From Gammaproteobacteria bacterium (GTDB lineage Bacteria > Pseudomonadota > Gammaproteobacteria > Ga0077536): 64,000 nt of DNA. Positions within the stretch are counted from its first letter, which is position 1. Every line of letters starts with the position of its first letter. Below, piece by piece: positions 1 through 300 of this stretch. The position numbers and the translations under genes were made by a program. Under the pieces are notes generated by a model. It saw nothing but the letters and a program-made list of their open reading frames with translations. It ran no database searches and was not told the DNA's origin. Location of the stretch: the NCBI GenBank assembly GCA_021773835.1, contig JAJFJQ010000071.1, positions 1-64,000 of the forward strand, read 5' to 3'.

Positions 1-19
1 CGCGCTGAAGCGATTAGGA

Positions 20-151
20 CGACCGTAGGTCGCCGCGCAGCGGTGATAAAAGCGAGGCTTCGCTTTTTCATCACAATCTCGCGGAGCGAGATTGGACGCC
101 AGAGCGAAGCGGCGGCGCCCCGAAGGGGTAAGCAAACGATACTTCGTTTGC
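20..151. repeat. Tandem array of short perfect hairpins, mostly with GNA loops
   Basis: Seven stem-loops follow one another in about 130 bases: 20-32 (5-bp stem, loop GTA), 33-43 (4 bp, GCA), 48-67 (8 bp, GGCT), 74-94 (9 bp, GGA), 104-110 (GC-GAA-GC), 118-128 (4 bp, GAA) and 132-151 (8 bp, TACT). All stems are perfect. Five loops are GNA triloops, and all four possible GNA loops occur. d(GCGAAGC) is an established, unusually stable DNA minihairpin. No coding frame of note runs through the array. It lies just upstream of tRNA-Arg, and whether it continues to the left of the window is not visible. Confidence 0.75.
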
Positions 152-223
152 GCATCCATCCTTGCGTTGAAAATTAGACAAAATTCATAGGCGGCGTTGG
201 TGTAAAATCACGCTCTGAACATA

Positions 224-300
224 GCGCCCGTAGCTCAGCTGGATAGAGTACCTGGCTACGAACTAGGGGGTCGGAGGTTCGAATCCTTCCGGGCGCGCCA
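224..300 (+). tRNA. tRNA-Arg (anticodon ACG)
   Basis: A 77-nt cloverleaf ending in encoded CCA. The acceptor stem is GCGCCCG/CGGGCGC. The anticodon stem CCTGG/CTAGG encloses the loop CTACGAA, giving anticodon ACG (read as ICG for CGN arginine codons). The T loop is TTCGAAT. A terminator follows at 353. Confidence 0.97.

Follow-up and report, generated by a model that had tools for sequence, protein, structure and literature searches.

The tyrT repeats of Escherichia coli have been known for more than 40 years, and we know of no agreed origin or role for them. The 178-bp repeats of the tyrTV region comprise, in this order, GGTTCGA, a hairpin, GTTGCC-GCA-GGCAAC, CCC-GAA-GGG, GCGC-GCA-GCGC and TAATCCTTCCCCCACCACCA. 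The rtT sequence was found to be similar to a BIME cluster in enterobacteria (PMC2965389), and RtT RNAs near tRNA genes were detected on Northern blots in Actinobacillus pleuropneumoniae (PMC4986893).

The hairpin array at the start of the window, that is, of the whole 64-kb stretch of DNA analyzed here, belongs to a family which shares with the E. coli tyrT/tyrV repeats GGTTCGA, four hairpins in the same order, GCA and GAA triloops and a subsequent tRNA 3' end with its CCA; tandem units trailing a tRNA, of about 178 bp in E. coli, also occur in relatives of the window, at 166–184 bp. As in rtT, T-arm halves surround four ordered hairpins beside a tRNA. A model built without the E. coli units (R1) matched these units in register, with 26.4, 24.7, 21.4 and 15.6 bits over a background of 7.5. 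In the opposite direction, the Rfam RtT family (RF00391; gathering score, 45 bits) scored 133–138 bits in E. coli and 27.7–36.9 bits, below the gathering score, in relatives of the window, while no match was found in the window itself (none at E ≤ 0.5 for L001), where the tRNA was the only Rfam match at gathering scores. Based on this anatomy and on the weak reciprocal profile evidence, the window array is a distant rtT relative and not a member of RF00391. It differs from E. coli rtT in that two cores are fused in one T-loop, upstream of an intact tRNA and tied to Arg, and the family differs from it in using many tRNAs and in being located usually behind a terminator. AaHKsRNA22 (RF02902), an sRNA from Aggregatibacter, matched the arrays of one related locus (L131) over their full length with 38.6 and 38.1 bits (gathering score, 39.8) and had no match in the window.

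With regard to other known elements, the arrays resemble REP/BIME sequences in being short extragenic palindromes, but they are tied to tRNA T-loops, number about 14 per genome instead of hundreds and have no RAYT gene beside them. Integron attC sites are also folded hairpin sites, and genes lie between arrays at two loci (L131 and L134); however, the array edges (GGTTCGA and ATCC) lack the RYYYAAC/GTTRRRY core boxes and are anchored in tRNA T-arms. Island and phage attachment sites at tRNAs, such as that of phiPSA1, share the tRNA genes and the duplicated tRNA ends, whereas these phage attP sites contain no hairpin core. No paper on the wider family was found in the literature searched, which lacked most subscription papers.

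Anatomy of the array and the surrounding tRNA-Arg

Positions 20–151 contain six perfect hairpins (stem of at least 4 bp, loop of 3–4 nt) with a total of 38 stem bp and four GNA loops (Table 1). An earlier note, made from the letters alone, had counted seven perfect hairpins; six of them stood, and the remaining one, which carries the second GAA loop, turned out to be imperfect. Its observation that hairpin density is far above that of the rest of the window was borne out: neither the hairpin count nor the stem total nor the GNA number was matched by any of 1,931 132-base windows elsewhere in the sequence (maxima of 5, 21 and 2, respectively) or by any of 1,000 shuffles. Folding of positions 1–180 gave z-scores of -4.4 as DNA (0 of 200 dinucleotide shuffles) and of -3.6 as RNA.

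The first base of the window is also the start of contig C69, and this edge cuts a further hairpin (ATCGC...GCGAT) which is complete on contigs C67 and C58, so that the whole array comprises eight hairpins. The first 124 bases of C69 also open C67 and C58, and its first 200 bases also close C58, so that a repeat has broken the assembly at the start of C69. The array follows ...GGTTCGACATAT on C67 and C58, and the first five bases of core 1 (CATAT), which lie beyond the contig edge, are found there directly after the GGTTCGA of a truncated tRNA-Arg.

A covariance model from relatives (R2; 127 sequences, the window core among them) matched positions 67–164 with 66.4 bits (E 3.9e-15), its sole match in the 64-kb window, and recognized core 1 with 44 bits on the other contigs (C67:43-136 and C58:43-136). 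Since both parts are matched by R2, the array can be read as GGTTCGA / core 1 (...CATCA) / core 2 (CAATCTCGC...GCATCC) / ATCCTT. The two cores abut without T-arm sequence between them and are four-hairpin cores of about 80 bp each, placed end to end in one T-loop. An independent stacked pair was observed in L263, from a different class of the phylum (GGTTCGAC...GGAGTCA / TCAATTGGC...GAATCA / GTCCCG). Tandem units of the ~178-bp type, which include the tRNA 3' end, are present in relatives; in the window, only the cores are doubled.

Table 1. Features at the start of the window (positions in the window)
Feature	Position	Strand	Stem	Loop	Details	Basis
Core 1	1–73	+			HP1' (...CGC / GCGAT at 10–14), HP2' 20–32, HP3' 33–43, HP4' 48–67, end CATCA
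Core 2	74–157	+			HP1 74–94 (CAATCTCGC GGA GCGAGATTG), HP2 97–114 (imperfect), HP3 118–128 (CCCC GAA GGGG), HP4 132–151, end GCATCC
Perfect hairpin	20–32		5 bp	GTA
Perfect hairpin	33–43		4 bp	GCA
Perfect hairpin	48–67		8 bp	GGCT
Perfect hairpin	74–94		9 bp	GGA
Imperfect hairpin	97–114				outer CGCC/GGCG, AGA bulge, inner GC-GAA-GC
Perfect hairpin	118–128		4 bp	GAA
Perfect hairpin	132–151		8 bp	TACT
Right-hand T-arm half of tRNA-Arg, array end	158–163	+			AATCCTTCC; ATCCTT	sequence
Spacer and leader of second tRNA copy	164–223	+			presumed promoter
tRNA-Arg, intact, second copy	224–300	+			anticodon ACG

On C67, GGTTCGA ends a tRNA-Arg(ACG) piece which is identical to nt 1–59 of the gene, and the array starts directly after nt 59. 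The ~1.3 kb upstream of this piece (C67rc 94-1451) is homologous, with ~71% identity, to the region before the tRNA-Arg(ACG) gene of some 15 relatives, so that the array cuts the ancestral tRNA-Arg after nt 59. The truncated 59-nt gene on C67 is thus the ancestral copy, and the intact gene in the window a second copy with its own leader. The spacer and leader sequence recurs before a tRNA-Arg variant at the end of C58, with one difference in 200 bases. C67 also holds, within positions 1–1500 (L007), a segment of ~1.4 kb that separates the tRNA-Arg fragment from the ancestral upstream region. This segment, which is absent in relatives and contains a gene resembling GNAT/FemAB-type transferases, is another insertion at the same tRNA-Arg.

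Distribution and tRNA linkage of the hairpin family

By DNA and model searches, the core was detected in 24 of the 36 genomes of the family (up to 14 matches), in 115 of 369 genomes of Gammaproteobacteria and in 69 of 398 across Pseudomonadota, three counts which rest on different models and thresholds; it almost always lay at a tRNA. The named relatives are uncultivated gammaproteobacterial MAGs; MAG records which are titled Klebsiella pneumoniae (L045, L049, L052, L053, L057 and L068) cluster with such relatives of the window and are probably mislabelled. No arrays were found in phages or plasmids by blastn, and of seven pattern matches in viral sequences only one had a model match, a weak one (20 bits).

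An intact tRNA on the same strand was located within 600 nt of 93 of the 127 arrays in the fetched loci, with 70 arrays downstream of the tRNA (median, 76 nt) and 23 before it. The right flank of the array matched the 3' end of the neighbouring tRNA over a mean longest stretch of 10.8 nt, compared to 5.1 nt for other tRNAs, and a match of at least 8 nt was shared with the own tRNA in 66 of 93 cases and with other tRNAs in one of 93. Each core lies between the two halves of a T-arm within a partial copy of a neighbouring tRNA gene, with TTCGA immediately on its left and ATCC immediately on its right. Of the suggestions in the earlier note, that of a palindromic repeat element is supported, here as one tied to a tRNA. 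Neither of the two findings which the note named as refuting was made: the core recurs in relatives and is conserved in structure through compensatory changes, and the array lies within no coding gene.

Two layouts were observed. In the first one, an intact tRNA is followed by a terminator, often by an inverted tRNA 3' end with the snap-back GAACC-GGTTCGA, and then by the array and ATCC...CCA, frequently in tandem with a period of 166–184 bp. In the second one, represented by the window, L050 and L129, a tRNA 5' part ending in GGTTCGA precedes the array, a leader and an intact tRNA. Outside Gammaproteobacteria, cores likewise adjoin tRNA-Ser, Arg, Gln and Asp, except for the copies in one genome of another class (G408; L265 and L266), where single cores are dispersed (11 matches) and L265 lacks GGTTCGA; the core may thus also live away from tRNAs.

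Comparison of the locus among relatives revealed that presence of the array is polymorphic: at syntenic tRNA-Arg(ACG) genes, it was found in G010, G012, G014 and G025 and not in G006, G008 and G028. No close pair with everything but the array unchanged on both sides was found among the relatives compared. In G014, the only tRNA-Arg(TCG) found carries an array within its T-loop (L133, G014:C19:15710-15852), while four congeners have an intact copy; at a genome completeness of 96%, this means either loss of the tRNA or something out of the ordinary. At two loci (L131 3009-8213, G149:C11, and L134 2659-7666, G014:C19), arrays bracket genes over 1–5 kb whose sequences resemble those of toxin-antitoxin pairs (AbrB/HigBA and DUF5615/DUF433), an LRR protein and rhodaneses. 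These could be cassette cargo or, alternatively, islands inserted among arrays.

The plain motif GACCGTAGGTCG was discarded as diagnostic, as its matches on C53 and C59 look like chance and that on C68 is another hairpin repeat. The latter (L016, G000:C68:201200-201500) is a different repeat of ~108 bp which contains GACCGTAGGTCG beside a tRNA-like piece (ACTTGAACCACCGACCTC).

DNA-type and RNA-type features of the stems

Across 115 distinct arrays, 97% of cells were paired and changes on both sides occurred in 24 of 26 pairs, values reached by none of 500 shuffles, in an alignment which was fitted to structure and hence leans toward pairing. Departures from Watson-Crick pairing in the array stems comprised 31 G-T and 22 A-C, in contrast to 31 and 0, respectively, in the stems of neighbouring tRNAs. 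Since a stem of one-strand RNA should tolerate G-U but not A-C, this balance argues for DNA, or for processes that act on both strands. The loop of HP3 was GNA in 104 of the 115 arrays, and GNA triloops are stable in single-stranded DNA. Furthermore, of the 49 relatives with an array behind a tRNA, 29 have an intrinsic terminator separating the two. Taken together, covariation, triloops, the near-equal departures and the terminators point to a DNA-level structure.

These features also bear on the reading of the arrays as RNA elements, in which tRNA read-through would be processed to a structured trailer RNA of the rtT/RttR type, serving as an sRNA or sponge, with the hairpins kept for RNA function. 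This reading, which we consider rather unlikely, draws on an anatomy equal to that of E. coli rttR, an annotated ncRNA, on the sub-threshold matches of RtT and AaHKsRNA22 to related arrays and on the A. pleuropneumoniae Northern blots; since E. coli rtT is transcribed according to the literature, RNA roles have to be reckoned with, which counts against a DNA cassette. However, G-T departures hardly commoner than A-C are unexpected for a stable RNA, the triloops are GNA and not GNRA or UNCG, many arrays are preceded by terminators, and the window array comes after a dead tRNA fragment and ahead of the leader of the next tRNA gene. On the last two points, the proposal in the earlier note of a structured 3' end of an upstream transcript also found no support. 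Rfam sX4 (RF02223) matched tRNA-Ser with an inverted trailer below its gathering score (L039, L104, L129, L131 and others), and this family may partly consist of such tRNA trailers.

The DNA-type signature could alternatively stem from template-switch repair of palindromes. The arrays would then be passive repeats, in which palindromic T-arm and terminator sequences cause template switching during replication, so that tRNA pieces are duplicated and hairpins become perfect, with neither a moving enzyme nor a function. Perfect palindromes with both strands equal, tandem periods of 165–195 bp and the inverted tRNA 3' end that many units contain together with a snap-back at GAACC...GGTTCGA are in line with such an origin. 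Nevertheless, we regard it as unlikely, given that the four-hairpin order is kept phylum-wide on different tRNAs with free sequence exchange in every stem, and that the stacked cores of the window and L263, with exact edges and no T-arm between them, look like insertion.

The neighbouring conjugative element, candidate enzymes and proposed origin

Contig C58 (71,046 b) begins and ends with the array. One end also has a tRNA-Arg variant and a tyrosine integrase gene, and the contig carries conjugation genes, namely traC (TIGR03744, 1331 bits), traD (TIGR03754) and matches to TIGR03752/TIGR03755. It is an integrative conjugative element; the contig joins agree both with its insertion between C67 and C69 and with a circular form. 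The position of the array as the junction of this 71-kb element with the chromosome is supported. C58 also encodes ParM-like and ParB-like proteins, and its tRNA-Arg variant beside the integrase has an altered D-arm (GCTTAAGCCAGG).

No enzyme tied to the arrays was found among the two types examined, P0001-type integrases and Y1/RAYT transposases. The nearest Y1/RAYT gene in the own genome is 7 kb from the array on C48, and none was close in 15 other genomes; presence of Y1/RAYT and of arrays was associated by genome (OR 2.8, p 5.5e-5), an association probably confounded with genome size. As for P0001-type tyrosine integrases, the idea that the array is the attachment site of islands carrying them, here as a direct repeat flanking the 71-kb C58, agrees with the arrays at both ends of this contig and with integrase genes directly adjoining arrays on C58, C60 and G014:C19, but it is largely refuted as a general account and in our view very improbable, as arrays do not occur wherever such an integrase does, no association by genome was detected (11 observed versus 13.4 expected; OR 0.73, p 0.48), the tRNA attP sites of related phage integrases lack an array, and most arrays have no integrase nearby.

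Our preferred reading is the serial insertion of folded-DNA cassettes at T-loops, with the window array as two tandem cores of a tRNA-linked hairpin family that is distant kin of E. coli tyrT/rtT; our confidence in this interpretation is evenly balanced. Here, each core would be a small cassette which, folded as single-stranded or cruciform DNA, inserts into tRNA T-loops or recombines at them by means of an enzyme presumably supplied from elsewhere. The cassette would bring or duplicate a part of the tRNA, either the 3' half with terminator or the leader with the 5' half, so that an intact tRNA remains, and it would leave landing sites where islands and further cassettes pile up. A broader claim, which we put forward tentatively and consider doubtful, is that T-loop hairpin cores constitute a previously unrecognised minimal mobile DNA, cassettes of ~80 bp integrated as folded single strands at tRNA T-loops across Pseudomonadota, which stack, at times carry cargo such as toxin-antitoxin pairs, and have one fossilised member in the E. 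coli tyrT repeats.

In this comparison, the tyrT repeats of E. coli appear as one local case of a family that is bound to tRNAs throughout the phylum, with exact edges at T-loops and covariation of a DNA type, and because of this membership their origin becomes testable by strain comparison. As a caution, RtT, AaHKsRNA22 and similar sRNA families may in part represent a DNA repeat. Furthermore, tRNA T-loops stand out as places at which small structured DNA builds up next to islands.
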